Positions 6,037 through 47,018 of a DNA stretch of 64,000 nucleotides are shown here, piece after piece (position 1 is the first letter of the stretch; each line of letters begins with the position of its first letter). A program made the position numbers and the translations under genes. The notes under the pieces are model-generated. The model saw nothing but the letters and a program-made list of their open reading frames with translations, ran no database searches and was not told the DNA's origin. The stretch lies in IMG/VR virus record IMGVR_UViG_3300028800_000084, positions 1 to 64,000 of that record, one strand, 5' to 3'. This DNA is from a virus.

Positions 6037-6440
6037 TAGGTTAGTCTCGTTACGCGAAAAGTCACTTTGCGATACCTGTCCATGTCGTGGACGACCGTCG
6101 TGCCAAAGCGCGGGCGCCAAATCCAGCCGTTGTACTGCTGATACGTTCCGTCGGGATAGCCGGTTGGTACACTGACGGTCACTTTAGCCGAGGCGATGGA
6201 CGCCGACAAGCCGCACTGCGACAGCATACTTGTCCATTCGGTGGGTAGGAGGTAGCTGTAGAATATGTCAATGAAAAGGCCATCGTCAAATATCGAACCA
6301 TCAGCCCCGTAACGTGGCAAGCCAACCTGCACGTACTGGAACTGTACGCTGGTGTCGGAGCGCGGCTGCGGGTTGATAAGAGCCAGACCCGCGCCGTTTG
6401 ACCATCCCTGACTGAGTTGCCAATTGCTATCAAGCGTCAT
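6036..6440 (-). CDS. Small tail-tip protein downstream of tape measure
   Basis: This 134-residue protein sits between tape measure and tail hub, overlapping the first by ATGA and the second by TAGTG. It is rich in aromatic and beta-prone residues and has no signal peptide or membrane segment. Position matches the distal-tail protein of siphoviruses, but I recognise no family motif. Confidence 0.6.
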   Translation of the reverse strand: MTLDSNWQLSQGWSNGAGLALINPQPRSDTSVQFQYVQVGLPRYGADGSIFDDGLFIDIFYSYLLPTEWTSMLSQCGLSASIASAKVTVSVPTGYPDGTYQQYNGWIWRPRFGTTVVHDMDRYRKVTFRVTRLT

Positions 6441-9025
6441 TGTATCTGGTCAAACGCCTCCTGCATCCACTGTTGCACTTGCGCCTTCTGTTGTGCCGTC
6501 GCCATGCTGTCGCCAAAATAGATGTCGCCGTTCATGATGACCTGCTTACCCTTCGGCTCCGGCCCCGACGCAGGCGACACGGACGCCCCGCCCGCTCCGG
6601 CGCGCACGAGTTCGCTTCCTACCCATCCGGTCTGGAAGGGCGGGATAACGCCGCCGCTGGCGAACGTGCCGAATATAGTGTCGCTCCCACCGAAGAAGCT
6701 GCCCCCGTAAATGGAGCCACTAGCGCCATTCGCCCCTCCCGAATTGCTGATGGAACCAAATCCGCTAGGCACAAGGTCGCCCGGAGAGGCGTTATTAGCG
6801 GTGTACCATATGGTTCCATTGGCGTCCGTGAACGCCTGAGTACTCGTTCCTGCCAGAGGGTTTACCCCGGCGGGCGGTACGTAAGGTTGCGGGTTGATAA
6901 TGTTTGGCGCTGCCGTGGCCGCTGCTACCGCCGCCGCATAAGCCGCTGCCGTGGCAAAAGCCTCGCCTGCCGCTACGCCCGCCGCCACCGCCTGCGAATG
7001 CGCACTCGTGACGCCGTTGGCAAACGACACGACGCTGTTGAAGCCGCCGACCACCGCTGCCGCTGCTTGCAGGACGTAACTGGCGGCAATGGTCGCCTCG
7101 TCGCCCTTCAGCTTGGCTTCGAGGGCGTTCTGCTGCGTGGTGAAGCTGTCGGACTGCTGTTGTTCGGTGCGCTTGAAATTGGCAGCCTCTTGCGTCTGCT
7201 GCTGGTCGAAGTTGTCCTGCGCCTGTTTCTGTTTGAGAGCGAAATTGGCGGCGTCCTGACTCTGCTGTGCGTTGAAAGCCGCTGTGCGCTGCGCCACTTC
7301 CGCGTTGGCGTTGGTCGTTATTTCGTTGAGCTTGGTCTGCTCGTCTTGCTGGCGCTGCGCCTGTTGCTGGTTGTAAGTGTTAGTCGCTGAACTGACCTGT
7401 TCGTTGCGGCTGGCGAGGTCATTCTGGACGGCCACGGCGTCGAGGTTGGCGGCGTCCTCTTGCAGCTTCTCCTGCGACTTGCTCTGAATGTCCTGAAGTT
7501 TAGCCTGATAGTCCGACCACGCCTGTTGCGAGGCTTGCGCGGCGTCCTGCTGCGTCTTCAGGCGGTCGGCAGTCGCTTTCGTCTCAATGTCGTCCACGGC
7601 GGCATCGAAGTCGGCGGTCTTCTGCTGGCGCGCCTGGTCGAACGTGTCCTGCGCTTGCTGCTGGCGGAGGTCGAAGTCGTCCTTCTGCGTGGCTTGCTGT
7701 GCGTTGAAGGCGGCAACGCGGTCGGCGTCGGCGGCAAGGTACTTGGCGCGGTCATCGACCAACTGCTGCGTGGTCTTCAGGGCGTCGTTTTCCGCCTCGC
7801 GTCTCTCTACCACTGGTAGAATGTTGTCGGACAGGTTGGTAATGTCGCCGTTCAGCACTTGCAGGCGGTCGCTGAATTTCTGGAAGGTCGCCGCCGCGTC
7901 CGTCGAATATTGCGCGGCGTTCTTCAGCGTGGGCAACTGGCTCTCTATCGCCGCCGCTTCGTCCTTGTCGGCTTCAATCTTCTTCTTAATAGTGTCCGAC
8001 GACTCGCCTAGCGCCTGATCTGCCGCCACCTGGCTTTGTATCCATAGATCGGACGCCGCCGCCGTGTTCGCCGCTGCCGTGCGGGCTGCTACGGCGCTGT
8101 CACCGAGCGCATTGTTGTAGCCTTCCAGTTCAGCCGCCGCCGCGTCGGAGCGGGCTTGAGCGTCCTGTAATTGCTTGCCGAGTTCCTGGAAGCCCGGTTG
8201 CGTGGAGGCCAGAAGGAATTGGATACGAGCCGCCAGATCGCCCTGGTTGGTCTGTTGCGCAGCAAACGCGCCGCCTTCCGAACCGTTGATGCGGGCAATC
8301 TCAGCGTCAGCCGCCGCCTTGTCCTGCTGCGCTTTGGCGATGTTAGCCTGGATTTGCGGAGCGGTCTCGGTCGCGGCGGCGTTGAACTCGGTCTTCAGGG
8401 CGTCAGCGGCAGTTTTCAGGTTGTTAGAGGCGTCCTGCGTCTCCTGAACGAACGCCTCGTAAGCAATCGTCAACACGCCGAGAGCGGCAATAACCGGCGT
8501 CAGCACCGCCAGCACTGCCCCGAACGAGCCGAACAGGGCGTCGCCGCCTGCTGCCAGCGTCCCGAACAGGCCGCCCGCGTTCTGCAAGTTCTCGCTCAGC
8601 GTGGGCAAAAGGTCACTGATGCGCTGCAAGCCCTGTTCGAGGTAGATGACCGCGCCAACGTCACGCAAGCCGGGTGCGCCACCAACCGACCCGGCGACCG
8701 AGAAGGCGTGACCAATGCCGAACAGGGAGCTACCACCAGAAGAACCGCCTGTTGCACCGCCCTCGTCACCGGCGTCCGACGCGGCCTGAATAGCCTCTAC
8801 CGTGTTTGCCAGTTCCGCGTTCATGGCTTGCAGGTTAGCGGTTGTGGCAGCGAAGCCCTCGTTCATAGTGGTGATGAACGCTTGCGCTGACTGCGTGGCT
8901 CCGGCGAACGCGTCGGTAATAGTTTCGGCTAGACCCTCAAAGCGGGAGGATGCAGACGAGATAAAGTCGTCAAGACTGCCGTCGCTCTCAACTCCTACGC
9001 TTAAAGGTTCCGGCTGGTCGCTCAT
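6437..9025 (-). CDS. Tail tape measure protein
   Basis: This 862-residue protein is the longest low-complexity helical protein of the tail operon. It has an N-terminal helical region, a hydrophobic segment near residues 145-190, then about 400 residues of Gln/Ala/Asp-rich coiled coil with an internal duplication around FNAQQ...QAQDNFDQ (near 425-465 and 580-620). The Gly-rich C-terminus ends with the FASGGVI...GWVGSELV pattern common in tape measures. It sets tail length and leaves through the tube at ejection. A copy of the dispersed 15-bp palindrome lies inside it at 7806-7820. Confidence 0.85.
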   Translation of the reverse strand: MSDQPEPLSVGVESDGSLDDFISSASSRFEGLAETITDAFAGATQSAQAFITTMNEGFAATTANLQAMNAELANTVEAIQAASDAGDEGGATGGSSGGSSLFGIGHAFSVAGSVGGAPGLRDVGAVIYLEQGLQRISDLLPTLSENLQNAGGLFGTLAAGGDALFGSFGAVLAVLTPVIAALGVLTIAYEAFVQETQDASNNLKTAADALKTEFNAAATETAPQIQANIAKAQQDKAAADAEIARINGSEGGAFAAQQTNQGDLAARIQFLLASTQPGFQELGKQLQDAQARSDAAAAELEGYNNALGDSAVAARTAAANTAAASDLWIQSQVAADQALGESSDTIKKKIEADKDEAAAIESQLPTLKNAAQYSTDAAATFQKFSDRLQVLNGDITNLSDNILPVVERREAENDALKTTQQLVDDRAKYLAADADRVAAFNAQQATQKDDFDLRQQQAQDTFDQARQQKTADFDAAVDDIETKATADRLKTQQDAAQASQQAWSDYQAKLQDIQSKSQEKLQEDAANLDAVAVQNDLASRNEQVSSATNTYNQQQAQRQQDEQTKLNEITTNANAEVAQRTAAFNAQQSQDAANFALKQKQAQDNFDQQQTQEAANFKRTEQQQSDSFTTQQNALEAKLKGDEATIAASYVLQAAAAVVGGFNSVVSFANGVTSAHSQAVAAGVAAGEAFATAAAYAAAVAAATAAPNIINPQPYVPPAGVNPLAGTSTQAFTDANGTIWYTANNASPGDLVPSGFGSISNSGGANGASGSIYGGSFFGGSDTIFGTFASGGVIPPFQTGWVGSELVRAGAGGASVSPASGPEPKGKQVIMNGDIYFGDSMATAQQKAQVQQWMQEAFDQIQ
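7806..7820. promoter_or_regulatory. Dispersed palindrome, copy 1 (TCTACCACTGGTAGA)
   Basis: A perfect 15-bp palindrome (7+1+7) inside the tape measure gene. On the coding strand it reads CTA CCA GTG GTA GAG (LPVVE), using the CTA leucine codon, which is uncommon here. Related sites lie at 19418, 41791 and 51299. It looks like a repressor-binding or stoperator-type site; function is inferred. Confidence 0.5.
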
Positions 9026-27036: not shown

Positions 27037-27530
27037 CAGATTTCAACCCTTCTCAGTGGCGGGATGATGACATACTGCGCGTAAGCTTGCATACTGACGC
27101 TAATCACCCATCCAATCAGGATGCTCAGGTCGCGGTCGCTGCAATGTTCCTTGCGCCCTTCGGCAACCGCCAGTTCAATGGCCTTATCGAAATACTCATC
27201 GCGGCTTGGATTTCTTTTCGTCTCACTCCACTCCACGAAAGCATCACCGGAACGGTTCATGACCCGGCTCATTTTAGCGGGGTCGTCGTAAGCCAGATAA
27301 AAGCAAACCTTACCGTTGCCTTGCCCGAAGTCCAGCGGCCTTGCGTCGTCCGGCAGCACACTATCGTAACTTAGCCACAACTTGCCGTCCCAAACGCCCA
27401 GACTGACCGTATCGCCCAACGGCAGAAATTTTACCGCCGGGTTGCGTTCGAAGGGGCCGTTGTTCCACAGTTCCATGTCGGGCGGCAGTTTCGACAGCGC
27501 CCGCACGAGGTCAGCCACAGTTAGTGTCAT
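27036..27530 (-). CDS. Hypothetical 164-residue protein
   Basis: The ATG at 27530 overlaps the TerL stop as TAATG, so I prefer it to 27560. The N-terminus (MTLTVADLVRALSKLPPDMEL) is a pattern frequent in small phage proteins of unknown function. The C-terminus is a hydrophobic stretch (LSILIGWVISVSMQAYAQYVII) that could be membrane-associated. No enzyme motif. Confidence 0.55.
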   Translation of the reverse strand: MTLTVADLVRALSKLPPDMELWNNGPFERNPAVKFLPLGDTVSLGVWDGKLWLSYDSVLPDDARPLDFGQGNGKVCFYLAYDDPAKMSRVMNRSGDAFVEWSETKRNPSRDEYFDKAIELAVAEGRKEHCSDRDLSILIGWVISVSMQAYAQYVIIPPLRRVEI

Positions 27531-29200
27531 TAGCGTTTCCCCCCATTGCGCACTCTCCACGCCAGTTCGTCCGTTCGCTCAATCGTCTGCCCCGGTGACA
27601 GCGCCTTTTGCAAGGTCGGCGCAACGAGGCGCGGCACGTCCAGCGCCTTCCACAGGCCGTGCGCCACCTGGAACATGGACGTGCCGCCCCGGTACACGCA
27701 CTGCACGGCCAGCGTCCAACTGCTCGCCGCGTCGTCGTGCGAGCCTTCCGGCGCTTTGAGCGTGTTCACGTCGATGATGGACAGTTGCAGTATCGTTACG
27801 CGGTCGAACAGGATAGGTCGGCAGGCTTCCAGGTGCAGCCCGCCCGCCTCGTCCTTCGTCTCGCCAATCACTTCCGCCAGCGCCTTCTCGCCCGTGTCGT
27901 ACAGGGCGTTCTTGGAGCGCTCCGACGTCACCCACCCGGCGTCCCGCTCGGTGTTGCCGCGGCGGTTCATGCCGCGCCGCAGATTAGCCCCGCGCTCCTT
28001 CGACTGTGCGAGGAAAGCGTGACCGTGGTTGTTCAGTTCGAACAAGTCGGCGGCGTTGTTGTAGTAAAGCGACAGGTCGTAGGCGTAGTTGGCAAACTGC
28101 GTCGGCTCCACCTTGTTCTGAATAACGGCGCACTGCTCCAGTGTCTCGGCGTCCACGACACAAGCGAAACTGTCATCGCTATCGGTCGTGCCGCCCGCCG
28201 GGTCAGCGCCCAGCCCGTAAGTGCGGTCGGGGCGGGGCAGGATATAGAGCCTGAGGCCCGGTATCTGCGGAGCGTCGGCGGGCGTCAGCAAGGGGTCGCG
28301 CACTTGCGACACCGCCCGCAGCCAGGCCGGGCTGTAGCGCACGCTCAAGCTACGCGCCGACAGCGCCTCATCCGCCGTGCGCGGGTAATGCTTGTAGAGG
28401 CGGTCGAGCGTGCCGTAAGTCGAGAGCGCTTCTTTCTCCTGTTCGGCGTACCACTCCGCCGTGCGGTTGGGATTGTCGAACACGCCGAGGAAGGCAAAGC
28501 CCCACAAGCCGCCGCCCGCCATCGCCACCCGGCACAACTGCTGGAAGTGCGAGCCGGGCGTGTCCTCGTTGCGCGTCGAGAGGACAATCAGCGTGTTATC
28601 CCCGGCGTCGATGGTCGGGCGCACGTTGGAGATGAGCAGCGCCAGGTCGTCGGTAAAGTCGGCCTCGTCAATGACGACATCGGTGGCGGCGTTGGAGCGC
28701 CCGCCGGAGGAAGCCGGGAGTGCCTGGGCGCGGCTGCCGTTCGCCAGCCGGAACTCGTGGGCGCTGTCGGCGGTAATGTCCTGCTGCAACCACGGCGGCA
28801 GTCTGTCGTACATGCCGTGCAGACGCTCCAGTAGTTTTATAGCCTCATCGTCGCGCTGCGAGAACAGCAGCACTTCCCGTATCGGGCGGAACAACATCTT
28901 ATGCAGCTTATCAGCCACCACCAGCCACGTCAGGCCGTTCTGCCGAGCCTTGAGGATAGCCAGGAACTTATGCAACGCGAAAGCACCGAGTGCCCGCGCC
29001 TGCGCGTCCCACAGGGCGAACGGTATCCACGATGCACTCACGTTGTCGTAAATCTGGCAGTAGTGACTGATGAAATACGCGCTGTCGGCGGCGCAGCGCT
29101 CCCGTTCGGCGGCCACCTGCGTCTTCGTCGGCGGACGCGGGCGGGCAAAGGCGGCGTCGGCCAGGAAGGGCAGCAGGTCGGCGGGTAGGCGGTCAGGCAA
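27530..29200 (-). CDS. terL: Terminase large subunit
   Basis: The TTG at 29200 is chosen because AAGGA stands eight bases upstream and it overlaps the previous stop; this gives 556 residues. ATPase features are a Walker A-like KARQNGLTW (~86-92) and Walker B DVVIDEAD (~174-181). The nuclease domain starts with GLGADPAGGTTDSDDSF (~329-345), followed by LFELNNHGHAF and an acidic SHDDAASSW near the C-terminus. It pumps DNA into the prohead and cuts concatemers. The non-ATG start is the main uncertainty. Confidence 0.9.
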   Translation of the reverse strand: MPDRLPADLLPFLADAAFARPRPPTKTQVAAERERCAADSAYFISHYCQIYDNVSASWIPFALWDAQARALGAFALHKFLAILKARQNGLTWLVVADKLHKMLFRPIREVLLFSQRDDEAIKLLERLHGMYDRLPPWLQQDITADSAHEFRLANGSRAQALPASSGGRSNAATDVVIDEADFTDDLALLISNVRPTIDAGDNTLIVLSTRNEDTPGSHFQQLCRVAMAGGGLWGFAFLGVFDNPNRTAEWYAEQEKEALSTYGTLDRLYKHYPRTADEALSARSLSVRYSPAWLRAVSQVRDPLLTPADAPQIPGLRLYILPRPDRTYGLGADPAGGTTDSDDSFACVVDAETLEQCAVIQNKVEPTQFANYAYDLSLYYNNAADLFELNNHGHAFLAQSKERGANLRRGMNRRGNTERDAGWVTSERSKNALYDTGEKALAEVIGETKDEAGGLHLEACRPILFDRVTILQLSIIDVNTLKAPEGSHDDAASSWTLAVQCVYRGGTSMFQVAHGLWKALDVPRLVAPTLQKALSPGQTIERTDELAWRVRNGGKR

Positions 29201-29537
29201 GGTCGGCGTCCTTCTTCGGCAAATACCCGCAGCCAATAAGGCGTTCCGTCAGGTCAGCAAAAGCCAGAGGACCGAAATTGTGCCCAGGGTGCGGGAATGG
29301 CATCTCAAGGCACTCCGGGTAGCCAGCTTGAGAAACTTCTACAGCGCGGGCAATCGTGTCAACGCCGCTCCGCAAGAGCGCATTGCTTGTACGAGAACGT
29401 ATCTTTAGCTCCACGAAAGGGCCGCGCACCGCGATATATTTGCCCGCCTCAAGCGAAGGCATATCGTACAACTCCTCGATAATCTTTGCCTTGCCGTACC
29501 TCCCTATCAAAACGCGCAGTTCATCGCGCAGCGTCAT
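29193..29537 (-). CDS. Hypothetical 114-residue protein upstream of terL
   Basis: Overlaps both the ribbon-helix-helix gene (ATGA) and terL (8 bases). It has a helical N-terminus (LRDELRVLIGRYGKAKIIEEL) and a beta segment (GKYIAVRGPFVELKIRSRT). Not recognised. Its position would suit an auxiliary terminase protein. Confidence 0.5.
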   Translation of the reverse strand: MTLRDELRVLIGRYGKAKIIEELYDMPSLEAGKYIAVRGPFVELKIRSRTSNALLRSGVDTIARAVEVSQAGYPECLEMPFPHPGHNFGPLAFADLTERLIGCGYLPKKDADLA

Positions 29538-29944
29538 TCATCCTTCTTCTGCTGGTAAGACAACGGGGATACCCCACCTAGTTTTTTCTTCGCCTGCGCT
29601 TTGTTGAATGCAATCCGTTCGGCAGGCGTCATCTCTCGCTGTATTACAACTGGCGCAGGTTGTATTACATCTTCCGCCCCGTTGCCATTTTGTAATACAT
29701 TTTTGGACGGCTCAGGTGATTTATGTATTACAAGTTTTACCTTGCGACCCTTCGGCGGCTGATTTTGTATTACATCTGGCACGGGTTGTAATACATCAGG
29801 GATGGAGTAGGGCGGGTTGTAATACAACCGCAGAGCAGTCCGCCAGACCTGCGACCGCTGGCGTTTCGGAATGATGGACAGCCGTTCTAGCAGGTCGGCG
29901 TCCTTATCCGTGTTCAACCGCAAAGTAACTACCACCGTCGCCAT
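29534..29944 (-). CDS. Ribbon-helix-helix DNA-binding protein whose gene carries an operator array
   Basis: The ATG at 29944 gives 136 residues and follows an AAGGAA; the ATG at 29974 would lie at the transcription start. Residues ~1-42 (VVVTLRLNTDKDADLLERL ... RSQVWRTALRLYYN) fit a CopG/ParR-like ribbon-helix-helix fold. The rest is a low-complexity linker with repeated VLQ/VIQ/VIH tripeptides, each encoded by a copy of TGTAWTACA, and a basic tail. Three more copies lie upstream over the promoter. The protein probably binds these sites and represses itself; it could also serve partition or DNA packaging, given the next genes lead to terL. Confidence 0.7.
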   Translation of the reverse strand: MATVVVTLRLNTDKDADLLERLSIIPKRQRSQVWRTALRLYYNPPYSIPDVLQPVPDVIQNQPPKGRKVKLVIHKSPEPSKNVLQNGNGAEDVIQPAPVVIQREMTPAERIAFNKAQAKKKLGGVSPLSYQQKKDE

Positions 29945-29987
29945 TTGTAATACATTCCTTCCGATGTAATACAAAAAGTGTAATACA
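29640..29987. repeat. Array of ten TGTAWTACA sites
   Basis: Perfect 9-bp copies start at 29640, 29661, 29691, 29724, 29766, 29787, 29818, 29946, 29965 and 29979. TGTATTACA and TGTAATACA are reverse complements, so the site is a palindrome with an A/T centre. Seven copies lie in the coding region of the ribbon-helix-helix gene and three cover its start and promoter. Spacings are 21, 30, 33, 42, 21, 31, 128, 19 and 14 bp, several close to whole helical turns. About 0.5 copies would be expected by chance in the whole window, and I saw none elsewhere. Confidence 0.9.
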
Positions 29988-30005
29988 AACGTTCTGGCGC
30001 GTCAA
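29977..30005 (-). promoter_or_regulatory. Leftward promoter of the terminase operon
   Basis: On the minus strand, TTGACG (30000-30005), a 17-base spacer and TACACT (29977-29982) form a plausible sigma70 promoter. The tenth TGTAWTACA site overlaps the -10 box and the ninth lies over the start point, so a bound repressor would block it. Confidence 0.55.
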
Positions 30006-31273: not shown

Positions 31274-32035
31274 TCACTCGCCCTTATCGCCTAGCGCCTT
31301 GTCCTCGCCGCGTGCCAGCGCTGGCACCACGTTAGCGAGTCGTGGTAGATGCGCCTCTATCGCTGCCATGATGTCGTCGAGCGCTTGCACTGGGTCCAGG
31401 TTAGCGCGGGCGCATAGAGCGTCATAGCGCAGCATGGCAACCTCTAGCTCAGGCCGTACGCCGCTTAGCTTGTTGAGGTGCGTCCTGGCTATTCCCCCTA
31501 CCACGGCCAGGTCACGGGGCATGGCTGATCTCATCTTGTCGGTTGAGGTTAGTTCGTCTAGTGCGAGGTCTTCGACACGTTGCCATTTAGATGTTACCGC
31601 TTGCTTGCCGTCTAGTGCGGCTTGTTGGGCGTGCTCAATGCTCACAGTAGGCTTAGGCACAATGGCGCGTGCTTCGTCGTGCAGTTCGTCGTGCCAGCGT
31701 GCCAGTGTGCCAGTGGCGACATCGGCATTAAGGACAGCGCGCGCTGCGTTTAGGCCGTCCTCACTGAGAGGATGCTCCCGACCAGCGTGAAGCATGGCAA
31801 CCACGGCGTTAAGCTTTTCCTGGCTTGTCCAAGCGCGCGGGCTGGCACGTTTTCCAGTTCGCTTACTTTCGTCGGGTTCACTGCTTTGGGTACTTTGTAC
31901 ACTATCCGCGCTTGCCCTACGCGCAGCGCTACGCACGGGCGCATCGGCAGCGCTACGCACCGACGGCACCGCGCTAGAGCTTCCCGCGCTTGTGCTTCCG
32001 CGCTTGCCGCGTGTTGCGCTTGTTCTACGTGCCAT
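31274..32035 (-). CDS. Terminase small subunit candidate
   Basis: This 253-residue protein has a Ser/Arg/Ala-rich, disordered N-terminus (~1-65), then a helical region with a helix-turn-helix-like stretch (SEDGLNAARAVLNADVATGTLARWHDEL) and a helical C-terminus. The combination and its place upstream of terL suggest the DNA-recognition terminase subunit. The gene contains three GTGCCAG repeats at 8-bp period (31691-31713) and the perfect palindrome GTGCCAGCGCTGGCAC (31312-31327), possible packaging-site elements. Alternatively a general regulator. Confidence 0.45.
   Translation of the reverse strand: MARRTSATRGKRGSTSAGSSSAVPSVRSAADAPVRSAARRASADSVQSTQSSEPDESKRTGKRASPRAWTSQEKLNAVVAMLHAGREHPLSEDGLNAARAVLNADVATGTLARWHDELHDEARAIVPKPTVSIEHAQQAALDGKQAVTSKWQRVEDLALDELTSTDKMRSAMPRDLAVVGGIARTHLNKLSGVRPELEVAMLRYDALCARANLDPVQALDDIMAAIEAHLPRLANVVPALARGEDKALGDKGE
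31312..31327. repeat. 16-bp perfect palindrome GTGCCAGCGCTGGCAC
   Basis: Lies near the 3' end of the small-terminase candidate gene and shares GTGCCAG with a triple direct repeat at 31691-31713 in the same gene. It may be a protein-binding site such as a packaging element. Confidence 0.4.
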
Positions 32036-32094: not shown

Positions 32095-32337
32095 CTAGGC
32101 GCTTTCATCGGGCAGCGGCGCATAGGGGGTATCGGCAGCAGCACCTACAACAGGCTTGCTAGGCCAATGGTGGTTGCCTCCTCGCTTAGGCTGTTCTACT
32201 GGCGTGCTAAGCATTGTAGTCAATCCGTCTCGGATGACTTCGGACATTTTTCGATGCTGGTTAAAAGCCTGTTGACGTAGTGCCTCATAGGTACTTTCGT
32301 CAATCAGGAATGTAACCCGCTTGAGTTTTTCAGGCAT
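32095..32337 (-). CDS. Ribbon-helix-helix protein (Arc/CopG-like)
   Basis: This 80-residue protein has an N-terminal ribbon-helix-helix (KRVTFLIDESTYEALRQQAFN, KMSEVIRDGLTTML) and a Pro/Ala tail. AGGAGG precedes the ATG. It is the first leftward gene of the divergent region and its promoter carries two tandem AGATTGTC octamers, so it is probably an autoregulated repressor. Confidence 0.7.
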   Translation of the reverse strand: MPEKLKRVTFLIDESTYEALRQQAFNQHRKMSEVIRDGLTTMLSTPVEQPKRGGNHHWPSKPVVGAAADTPYAPLPDESA

Positions 32338-43992: not shown

Positions 43993-44144
43993 TTTGCCGC
44001 CTCGCTTTCGTCCCAATCGGGCGGTTCGGGCAGCGCCTCCCAGACGCCCGGTGGCGTTTCCACAACGGCGGTAATCGTGGCGTGCAGGTCGTCAAGTAAC
44101 TCCTGCGTATAGAGCGGGTCGTTATCTCCGAACAAGTCATTCAT
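43989..44144 (-). CDS. Acidic hypothetical protein, 51 residues
   Basis: Short gene coupled to both neighbours (overlaps the helicase stop by 8 bases and the XRE start by GTGA). Sequence is acidic (MNDLFGDNDPLYTQELLDDL ... PPDWDESEAAK). Unknown function. Confidence 0.55.
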   Translation of the reverse strand: MNDLFGDNDPLYTQELLDDLHATITAVVETPPGVWEALPEPPDWDESEAAK

Positions 44145-45954
44145 GGTCATTCTCCTGCCAGACCGAACCGATGTCGATGCGCGTGTGCGTCACTTTCTGG
44201 AAACCGCGCCCCGGCGAATAGAACGTTTCGATGCGCTTGCCCTGCGCGCCGAACCAGCGGTCTTTGACCAGGGTCAGGTAGGCGAGGTTCGGGTCAATCG
44301 GTTCGTCGCCCGCCTTTGGCTTGACTTGCCGCGTTTCCAGGTCGTAGCCAGGGCGATAGACAGTCAGGAACCGCGTGGCGTTCTGTTCAATCACGCCGCC
44401 GCCCTGTGCATCGGAAATCAGCGGCTCTTTGTCGGCGCGGTCGGACGGGCCGCGATTGGCCTGACAGGTTGCCACGACGAACAGACCCACGTCCCGCACG
44501 CAGTAGCGCAGAGCGTCACAGATAGCAACCGTGCCGGGATATGTGCCCATGCCGCCTTGCGACACGTTTTGCAAGGAATCGACAATCATGATTTTGCCGC
44601 CGCGTCCCTTGAACAGTTCGCCCGTGCGTCGGATTTTGTCGGGGTCGGGCGAGTCGTGCTTGTAGAAAGTGATAGGCATTTTTCCGGCGGCGTCATAATG
44701 CTTGAAAATGCCCGCGCCCGCCTGTCCCGTGAAAATGTCGCGGGCGTTAATGCCCTGCATGTAGCTAACGATGCGATGCGTGTACCATTCCGGCGTCATT
44801 TCGGTGGTGAACACGAGTACCGGCGCTTGCTTGGCGAACTCAATAGAGAACTGCATTGCCAGCGTGGACTTGCCCGCGCCCGTCCGCCCCAGAACCATCA
44901 GCAGGTCGTTGGACAGAAAGCCGCCGGTCGCTTCATCCAACTCCTGCACGCCAGTCTGATAGCCTCGAATAGCCTTTGGCGTTTGCGCCCACGCTTCCGC
45001 TGTCCCTTTTGCCGTTGCTGCCACGTCGGACATACCAATCAAGTCCTCCTCCGGTTTCACGACGGTTACGGTAGGTCGGGGCGCTGGTGAACGAACCACT
45101 TCCGGCGCGAACGGCTGCGCCCGTCCTTTTTCCAGGCCGCTGCGCACGGTCAGGTCAATCTCGTGGTCAGTCAGGCCCAGGCCGCGCCCCTCGGCGGTCA
45201 GCACGTCCTCCGCTTCGCCCGCGTCAAGATTACCCGCGCCGACCAACTTGCCGAGGATGAAGGCCGCTTTGTTCAGTTCATTGTTGCGCTGCCCTTCGGA
45301 GGCTGTTCGCAGTTTGGCGATGGTGTTGTCGATAGTTGCCCGCGTCAGGCGTCCGCTGGACAGAGTGAGCAGCGGGCGCGGCGGCACGACGACTGGCTCC
45401 GGCTTGAGCAGTTTAAGCAACCAGTCCGGGGCGTCCACCGGCTCCGCTTCCTCAAATGACACTTTCCAGGCATAGGACGCACCGGAGGGATGGATTGACG
45501 GTGGGGCAACCACATAACCACCATCGCCGCGAAAGTCCAGACCGGGCAACTTTCCGGCGAAGTTATGAACCTCAAATCCGGGATGCTTGAAGTAAATGTG
45601 CTGCCCTTTGCCAGTCGAGCCAGTCGGCGTTTGTGGCACGCCGCCGCGTTCCTCCACCGCCTTCAACCCTTCGGCGCTATCCACGTCCAGGACGACTACG
45701 CCCGACACGCGCCCGGTGACGAGGCCCACGTTGCCTTGCGGACAGTCGGCCCACCAGGTGAGTATCTGGTCGCTGTCAGCCCGCTGCGTCTGGTAGGGTA
45801 TCCAGGTTGCCTGCCCGTCGGGGGATTTAGGCAGCAGTGCGGCGTTGGGTCGCTTGTCGTGCGGCTGCAAGGGAATGACCGATAGCCCGCGCTTTTCGTA
45901 GGCAAAGGCTTGCGTCAGAGGGTCGGTCGCCAGATTAATCACATCGGCCTCCAT
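44137..45954 (-). CDS. PrimPol-helicase replication protein
   Basis: ATG at 45954 gives 605 residues. The N-terminal bifunctional primase-polymerase domain (~15-170) has GLSVIPLQPHDKRPN, LDVDSAEG (DxD, ~90-92), STGKGQHIYFKHP and GGYVVAPPSIHPSG. A helical linker (~200-300) leads to a RecA/DnaB-like helicase domain with Walker A GRTGAGKST (~356-364), FTTEMTPEWY, and KIMIVDSLQNVS (Walker B). It primes and unwinds phage DNA; no DNA polymerase gene is visible in the window, so host polymerase is likely used. Confidence 0.85.
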   Translation of the reverse strand: MEADVINLATDPLTQAFAYEKRGLSVIPLQPHDKRPNAALLPKSPDGQATWIPYQTQRADSDQILTWWADCPQGNVGLVTGRVSGVVVLDVDSAEGLKAVEERGGVPQTPTGSTGKGQHIYFKHPGFEVHNFAGKLPGLDFRGDGGYVVAPPSIHPSGASYAWKVSFEEAEPVDAPDWLLKLLKPEPVVVPPRPLLTLSSGRLTRATIDNTIAKLRTASEGQRNNELNKAAFILGKLVGAGNLDAGEAEDVLTAEGRGLGLTDHEIDLTVRSGLEKGRAQPFAPEVVRSPAPRPTVTVVKPEEDLIGMSDVAATAKGTAEAWAQTPKAIRGYQTGVQELDEATGGFLSNDLLMVLGRTGAGKSTLAMQFSIEFAKQAPVLVFTTEMTPEWYTHRIVSYMQGINARDIFTGQAGAGIFKHYDAAGKMPITFYKHDSPDPDKIRRTGELFKGRGGKIMIVDSLQNVSQGGMGTYPGTVAICDALRYCVRDVGLFVVATCQANRGPSDRADKEPLISDAQGGGVIEQNATRFLTVYRPGYDLETRQVKPKAGDEPIDPNLAYLTLVKDRWFGAQGKRIETFYSPGRGFQKVTHTRIDIGSVWQENDHE

Positions 45955-47018
45955 TCGGCGGTGTTCGGGTCGCGCTGTTCGCGCACGCCGTTTGTCTCTC
46001 GATACCAAAAACTCGTATTCTCATCGAACCATGTGCGAGGCTTGCTTGGGTCAAGCGGTGGCGCAGCGGGATGCTCGGCTAACCACACGCCGATGTTCGA
46101 TGCGACGTGCGAGAAGGGAACCATCTTGCCTGCCCAGAACCGCGTTCCGTTTTTGTCCGTCTCGGCCAGCTTTGCTTTGACAAACCGCGCCACATCGTCC
46201 GCCGTCACGCCGCTGGCGGCCAGGGTGAGCGCCGCCGTCACGTTGGCTGTCACCGCATCGACGCCCCAGGCGGGCGTAAACCGGCCCGGATGGGACGCAC
46301 CCCATGTGTGGTAAAGACTAGCTGCCAGGGTCAGAGAGGCAGGCGTAACGCCGTCGTGAACGAGCTTGGACGTGAAGCGCATGTACGAGCCGTAAGCAAA
46401 ACCGGGCGGGAGTGTTTCTTTGCCAATGGTTGCAATCCAGGCGTCGAGCAGTTCGGCTTGCGGTTGGGGCTTGCGCTTTGGCGGTTCGTCAACCCGCTCC
46501 GCGTTAGCGGTTGCGGGAAGAGAGTAGTCTATGCTAGTGCTCTCTGTATATAGTATTTTACCCTTTGGGGAAATTGCATTTTGACCTTTGGGGAAATTAG
46601 AAGCGCTTCCCATTTTGACCTTTGGGGAAATTGAGAACTGGTCAAATAACGGTAAAAACCCAGACCAATTGATGCGAATATGCTTAGTCGGCTTGCTTCC
46701 GAAATGGTACAACGCCGTGATGATCAACTGCTTCTTTTCTAGAATAATCAGAGCGCGGTCAAGTTGCTTTGGCGTAACTCTGATTTCGTTCCACCACTCG
46801 GTGCGTTTTTTGGCGATCCATAGTTCCCCGTCATGGCTGACGGACAATTTCGTTACGCCGTTTCGTCCCGGCAGATGCCAATAGACGATCTGACTCAGCA
46901 CCAGACCGGCGATTAAGTCGCCCGCCATATCAATGTAGGCTTTTTTGAAGTCGATGGTGTCCCGTGACGACTGCTCCCAGTTGAGGAATCTCGCAACTAG
47001 CGGATCGACTTCGCTCAC
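45939..47018 (-). CDS. Replication initiator (DnaD/phage-Rep-like winged helix) with internal iterons
   Basis: This 359-residue protein begins with a winged-helix pattern seen in phage replication organisers (YIDMAGDLIAGLVLSQIVYW, DGELWIAKKRTEWWNEIRVT, QLDRALIILEKKQLI). A low-complexity middle contains the repeated peptide NFPK-GQNA / ISPKGK encoded by three DNA iterons, and the C-terminus is a second helical domain. The GTG start is coupled to a 21-codon leader ORF. It sits next to the PrimPol-helicase, so it most likely binds the iterons and loads the helicase. Confidence 0.75.
   Translation of the reverse strand: MSEVDPLVARFLNWEQSSRDTIDFKKAYIDMAGDLIAGLVLSQIVYWHLPGRNGVTKLSVSHDGELWIAKKRTEWWNEIRVTPKQLDRALIILEKKQLIITALYHFGSKPTKHIRINWSGFLPLFDQFSISPKVKMGSASNFPKGQNAISPKGKILYTESTSIDYSLPATANAERVDEPPKRKPQPQAELLDAWIATIGKETLPPGFAYGSYMRFTSKLVHDGVTPASLTLAASLYHTWGASHPGRFTPAWGVDAVTANVTAALTLAASGVTADDVARFVKAKLAETDKNGTRFWAGKMVPFSHVASNIGVWLAEHPAAPPLDPSKPRTWFDENTSFWYRETNGVREQRDPNTAEWRPM
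46554..46632. repeat. Iterons, candidate replication origin
   Basis: Three 22-bp units share the core CCTTTGGGGAAATT at 46562-46575, 46585-46598 and 46619-46632; the second and third are identical over all 22 bp (46577-46598, 46611-46632). Spacings are 23 and 34 bp, one helical turn apart. A palindrome GAAGCGCTTC lies between units 2 and 3. Direct repeats within an initiator gene are the arrangement of the lambda-type origin. Confidence 0.75.

Follow-up and report, generated by a model that had tools for sequence, protein, structure and literature searches.

Why should a phage gene be strewn with copies of a single DNA word, and what would the protein that it encodes do with them? In the 64,000 nucleotides analysed here (the window: positions 1 to 64,000 of IMG/VR virus record IMGVR_UViG_3300028800_000084, a 71,285-bp record), the palindrome TGTAWTACA recurs in and around a gene for a predicted ribbon–helix–helix (RHH) protein that lies two genes upstream of the gene encoding the terminase large subunit (TerL). 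A first-pass annotation of this DNA counted ten perfect copies, seven of them inside the gene, and offered three functions: a self-contained partition centromere, a packaging-recognition site or an unusual autorepressor. The genes and signals concerned are as follows.

27530–29236, minus strand: TerL (phrog_2, E 1.9e-23), likely the last gene of an operon that starts with the RHH gene
29193–29537, minus strand: 114-aa gene with no family match, its start and stop overlapping both neighbours
29534–29944, minus strand: RHH gene, 136 aa, ATG at 29944, carrying seven sites; its stop overlaps the next start by 4 bp
29955–29962, minus strand: Shine–Dalgarno-like GGAAGGAA, read from the sequence
29977–30005, minus strand: predicted sigma-70-like promoter (TTGACG, 17 bp, TACACT), a consensus match only, with 0.7 expected in shuffles
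31274–32035, minus strand: candidate terminase small subunit (TerS), a weak candidate named for its position only

From the overlaps between them, and from these overlaps only, the RHH gene, the 114-aa gene and terL probably form one operon. The candidate TerS gene (253 aa) had no family match. Upstream of it, at 32095–32337 (minus strand), lies a second small RHH gene (FitA/Arc-like) that carries no TGTAWTACA sites, and at 44137–46008 (minus strand) the window encodes a Prim-Pol primase fused to a DnaB-type helicase. No integrase was found in the 71-kb record, and the lifestyle may therefore be virulent.

Direct counting bears out the ten perfect palindromes, all between 29640 and 29987; after dinucleotide shuffling, the window contained a mean of 0.08 sites and a maximum of 1. 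A genome-wide count, proposed in the first-pass annotation, found none outside this interval in 71,285 bp, and allowing for one mismatch added nothing. Seven sites fall within the gene, at offsets of 118, 149, 170, 212, 245, 275 and 296, and three lie upstream of its ATG, starting at −43, −29 and −10. The sites are listed without strand.

29640–29648: site 1, TGTATTACA, codons read VIQ
29661–29669: site 2, TGTATTACA, codons read VIQ
29691–29699: site 3, TGTAATACA, codons read VLQ
29724–29732: site 4, TGTATTACA, codons read VIH
29766–29774: site 5, TGTATTACA, codons read VIQ
29787–29795: site 6, TGTAATACA, codons read VLQ
29818–29826: site 7, TGTAATACA, in another frame, read LYYN
29946–29954: site 8, between the Shine–Dalgarno-like sequence and the ATG
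29965–29973: site 9, over the expected transcription start
29979–29987: site 10, overlapping the −10 hexamer
29766–29797, plus strand: second copy of a 32-bp two-site unit, 88% identical to 29640–29671

Between the copies of the 32-bp unit, a centre base differs (changing Leu to Ile) and the palindrome is intact. The in-gene sites had been described as forcing repeated VLQ, VIQ or VIH tripeptides, which holds for six of the seven; 29818–29826 departs from this, encoding LYYN in a different frame. The AT-rich codons that the sites were said to impose are all rare in this phage, with GTA making up 9% of Val, TTA 1.5% of Leu and ATA 8% of Ile codons. The protein sequence permits a site at seven positions, and all seven are filled where 0.12 would be expected; under phage codon usage, the joint probability is about 1e-20, a figure that assumes independent sites and is imperfect in that respect because the 32-bp two-site unit is duplicated. 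Since the sites use rare codons, fall in two reading frames here and in three among the relatives, and occupy every permitted position, selection on the DNA word rather than on the peptide is supported. The first-pass annotation had named, as evidence against its reading, homologues that keep the VLQ peptides with other codons and no motif; the embedded-site RHH genes that we found instead keep the DNA word and vary the peptide.

The protein divides into three predicted parts.

29816–29944, minus strand: ParR-like RHH domain, residues 1–43 (AlphaFold2 and a ParR hidden Markov model); site 7 alone touches its end
29648–29806, minus strand: predicted disordered linker, residues 47–99, with six sites (pLDDT mostly below 50)
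29582–29626, minus strand: C-terminal helix predicted by AlphaFold2, residues 107–121

AlphaFold2, supplied with a ten-sequence alignment, modelled the N-terminal RHH domain with a pLDDT of 78–88 over residues 1–40 and placed a β-strand and two helices (residues 13–24 and 30–42) in the first 45 or so residues, the arrangement of the MetJ/Arc/CopG fold; from the single sequence the prediction was poor (pLDDT 39). The top-ranked Foldseek chains were mostly RHH proteins (AtaR, CopG, NikA and Arc), with E values above 1 because the domain is short, and searches of Pfam and of PDB sequences with the 136-aa protein returned nothing. The N-terminus had earlier been called CopG/ParR-like, and it is the second half of that label that stands. 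A profile of ten ParM-linked ParRs, with that of locus L052 left out, recovered the window gene at E 1.7e-4 as the top non-member after L052 among 17,089 open reading frames, against an E of about 2 for a CopG-type model. The only significant relative among the 17,089 open reading frames of the loci fetched by then is the L052 ParR itself (37% identity over 43 aa; phmmer E 5.5e-4). L052 had been selected solely for its TGTAWTACA sites and turned out to contain an actin-like par operon with five such sites upstream of the actin gene. Judged by these matches, the window protein is ParR-like rather than CopG-like. No close relatives of the RHH protein or of TerL were found among viral contigs, and tblastn with the RHH domain gave no phage matches and only insignificant plasmid matches, making direct comparison of orthologues impossible.

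Other loci carry such arrays as well. In a first set of 47 records chosen for arrays alone (1.78 Mb), five of eight Pfam RHH_1 matches fell within 500 bp of an array, a zone that covers 3.1% of the sequence (P 1.5e-6). At new loci from two later scans, RHH-profile matches were this close in 7 of 11 cases against 11% coverage (P 4.5e-5), and once the locus set had been enlarged and the database size fixed the figure was 6 of 10 (P 2.4e-4). For two control palindromes it was none of three, and the Fisher test by locus of new loci against these controls reached only P 0.09. The abundance of arrays was dropped as evidence: there are 59 for TGTAWTACA, 14 for the reversed palindrome ACATWATGT and again 59 for the same-composition control TACTWAGTA. 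Array numbers on their own are thus uninformative, and it is proximity to RHH genes that carries the argument. Phages unrelated to one another, some of them from the new scans, have TGTAWTACA arrays next to RHH genes. At five further loci, the sites are embedded in the RHH gene itself.

L045: three sites in the gene, two upstream; in-gene sites start at offset 116
L274 (later scan; classed as RHH by eye from sequence, with no family match): four in the gene, three upstream; start offset 129
L043 (likewise classed by eye, with no family match): four in the gene, one upstream; start offset 149
L194: five in the gene, none upstream (perfect sites)
L026: three in the gene, three upstream, and also one site at its start

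In most self-embedded genes, the in-gene sites begin right behind the RHH domain (offset 118 in the window), and three frames are in use across them, read as VLQ/VIQ/VLH, CNT and LYYN/LYYK/VYYN. In the window, all seven in-gene sites point to a single helical face (R 0.95 for a 10.5-bp turn; P about 9e-5 under a codon-frame null). The in-gene spacings of the other self-embedded genes (13 spacings) give R 0.60 with a mean phase near zero (P about 0.009), and phasing is weak when all RHH-linked arrays are pooled (R 0.29).

Several arrays stand apart from this group. Many in AT-rich contigs (for example, L015, L017, L029 and L056) consist of tandem or peptide repeats and have no RHH gene. Nine related contigs (L006, L016, L022, L038, L041, L053, L054, L057 and L060) share a non-RHH gene of about 150 aa with TGTAWTACA sites spaced 18 and 33 bp apart and read VLQ/VIQ. 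Two cellular genomes, a cyanobacterium MAG (L181, 2670–3011) and Sharpea azabuensis (L169, 2759–3166), have an array just 5′ of an RHH-like gene. The RHH protein of L031 is matched by the NCBIfam aCcr1 model, below the model cut-off.

Which function would such an arrangement serve? As the first-pass annotation had it, three sites overlap the promoter, where they cover the predicted −10 box (site 10), the probable transcription start (site 9) and the spacer between the Shine–Dalgarno-like sequence and the ATG (site 8), the placement of operator palindromes known from RHH autorepressors. Because of these three sites, autorepression fits best among the three functions first proposed, and the confinement of all sites to the RHH gene and its promoter agrees with it. 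We therefore favour, with somewhat better than even confidence, a model in which the RHH protein would coat its own promoter and gene and thereby throttle the RHH–terL operon. ParR-type RHH dimers would bind TGTAWTACA as two inverted TGTA half-sites, and dimers on the three upstream sites would block the promoter and the ribosome-binding region, repressing the gene itself together with the genes that follow in translational overlap, the last of which is terL. Further dimers could load on the seven in-gene sites, which share one helix face, and form bridges to those at the promoter over 128 bp of site-free DNA that encodes the RHH domain; the phasing of the in-gene sites could make loading cooperative, and the outcome would be a compact, switch-like repression complex. 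The linker would be free to carry sites because it is predicted to be disordered.

Two precedents make binding of TGTAWTACA by the window protein likely, by analogy. Escherichia coli RelB, the RHH autorepressor of relBE, binds [A/T]TGT[A/C]A, including the palindrome TTGTAATTACAA, with dimers on one helix face (PMC2812701). TrcR of Anabaena PCC 7120, also an RHH autorepressor, autoregulates through the motif ATACTACACTTGTATTAC, which contains TTGTATTAC and overlaps a TACACT −10 box (PMC10272220). Both differ from the window: relO has two adjacent 12-bp sites in the promoter only, with no in-gene array and with RelE as a partner, whereas TrcR is a cellular regulator with a single promoter operator. 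Autorepression also leaves some facts awkwardly placed. A simple repressor would not need as many as ten sites, and such numbers are commoner in centromeres, so that the array could still have a structural role in packaging or segregation; L194 has no perfect upstream sites; and at L019 an array lies between a TerS-like gene and TerL with no recognised RHH gene.

The position of the array between the candidate TerS gene and terL raises packaging as an alternative, in which the RHH protein on the array would mark phage DNA for the terminase, as a pac- or cosB-like element within a gene beside terL, with autorepression as a possible side effect. In the window, that position is the sole point in its favour. 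The same order, TerS, then array and RHH gene, then TerL, recurs at L045 (TerS phrog_51, E 3e-11; TerL phrog_2, G013:22804–24240), L297 from a later scan (TerS phrog_1482, E 5e-25; TerL phrog_979, E 9e-9), L048 (TerL phrog_2, E 4e-18; the upstream gene is merely TerS-like) and its relative L031. At L026, TerL lies beside the array and RHH gene, and at L040 the order is array, TerS-like gene, TerL; here, as at L019, the array adjoins terminase genes and no RHH gene was recognised. The P22 pac site offers a parallel, being recognition DNA inside a terminase-region gene, terS (PMC9611059). It differs in being a 22-bp asymmetric sequence read by a helix-turn-helix TerS rather than a palindrome array with an RHH protein, and known TerS proteins use helix-turn-helix DNA binding (PMC9611059), whereas the 136-aa protein matched no TerS family and has a predicted RHH fold instead. 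At L045 and L297 a gene of its own encodes TerS, a role that therefore need not fall to the RHH protein there; the self-embedded genes of L043, L274 and L194 are not beside terminase genes in the DNA seen; and in L034, L043 and L185 at least several kilobases separate the RHH-linked array from TerL. We regard packaging as unlikely on balance. A fuller version, in which a ParR-type centromere-binding protein was recruited from segregation into packaging in several unrelated phages alike, coating the array between terS and terL, marking the genome for the terminase and repressing the operon, seems to us similarly improbable.

Two observations touch on the same genomic region. In L031, TerL is seemingly split by a frameshift (6068–7596), possibly a sequencing error. 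In L066 (2556–2828) and L069 (10212–10484), a small Cys-rich gene flanked by a TerS-like gene and TerL contains three copies of ACATWATGT, spaced 21 and 30 bp apart and read VIHNV. The embedding of arrays in small genes of the terS–terL interval may reach beyond the word TGTAWTACA.

Partition, in which the protein would be a ParR acting on the array as its parC-like centromere to stabilize an extrachromosomal form of the phage, with a motor supplied in trans or unrecognised, is a doubtful reading, although the RHH domain is ParR-like and its best match serves an operon with five TGTAWTACA sites in the parC position. At L052, as at L009, L021 and L112, the array lies directly 5′ of a ParM-type actin gene followed by a small ParR-like gene, making these arrays candidate parC sites. 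No TGTAWTACA sites occur close to the ParMs of known phages and plasmids (SPO1, vB_BboS-125, KKP_3916 and others), which means that ParR proteins do not share this word in general. The likeness to type II (ParMRC) systems extends to roughly ten repeats around a promoter: R1 parC consists of ten repeats flanking a promoter (Dam and Gerdes 1994). The window differs in having no recognised ParM, in placing its 9-bp palindromes mostly inside the gene of the binding protein and in belonging to a terminase run. Omega, the RHH ParB of pSM19035, is both regulator and centromere binder, and its parS arrays of short sites overlap promoters (PMC9499535); these are contiguous 7-bp heptads (WATCACW) that act with ParA and, as described, do not lie in the omega coding sequence (PMC9499535). 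In the 71-kb record, which is possibly incomplete, an ALP profile and Pfam ALP_N found no ParM or actin-like NTPase, PF13614 found no ParA ATPase, and among the patterns tried the only P-loop was in the primase–helicase. Since none of ParM, ParA and integrase turned up in the 71,285 bp, the evidence does not support a full partition system, which weakens the self-contained centromere of the first-pass annotation; the gene moreover belongs to the probable terminase operon.

An antitoxin-type arrangement, in which an RHH antitoxin with a disordered tail would autoregulate a toxin–antitoxin operon with the 114-aa neighbour as toxin, is very unlikely: type II antitoxins typically combine an RHH domain with a disordered C-terminus and autoregulation, and the two genes overlap, but the neighbour matches no toxin family, terL lies in the same gene run and the operators of antitoxins do not as a rule continue through the gene. 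Least credible of all is that the VLQ/VIQ linker peptides were selected and the palindromes are a by-product, for although one frame is common to six of the seven sites and part of the gene is duplicated, the rare codons (P about 1e-20) speak against it and it is already contradicted by the LYYN frame here, by the CNT, LYYK and VYYN frames in relatives and by the three further sites in non-coding DNA.

Autorepressors of the RHH class, ParR centromeres and pac sites located within a terminase gene all have precedents. In the part of the literature that we searched, we found no ParR-like gene that carries its own phased site array in its linker, recurs in unrelated phages and is often placed between terS and terL. 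The arrangement appears to be a genuine self-addressed device for regulation or DNA handling: a gene doubling as the multi-site array that its own protein is predicted to bind, so that one stretch of DNA is under two codes. Finding it again in RHH genes of several unrelated phages, with each of the three frames used, makes this a testable design principle, not an oddity. For the recognition of pac by TerS, an open question for many phages (PMC9611059), it offers a short element whose predicted binding site can be tested. The occurrence of one word, TGTAWTACA, in partition operons of the ParM type, in phage RHH repressors and in arrays of the terminase region suggests how proteins of DNA segregation may have become regulators or packaging factors.
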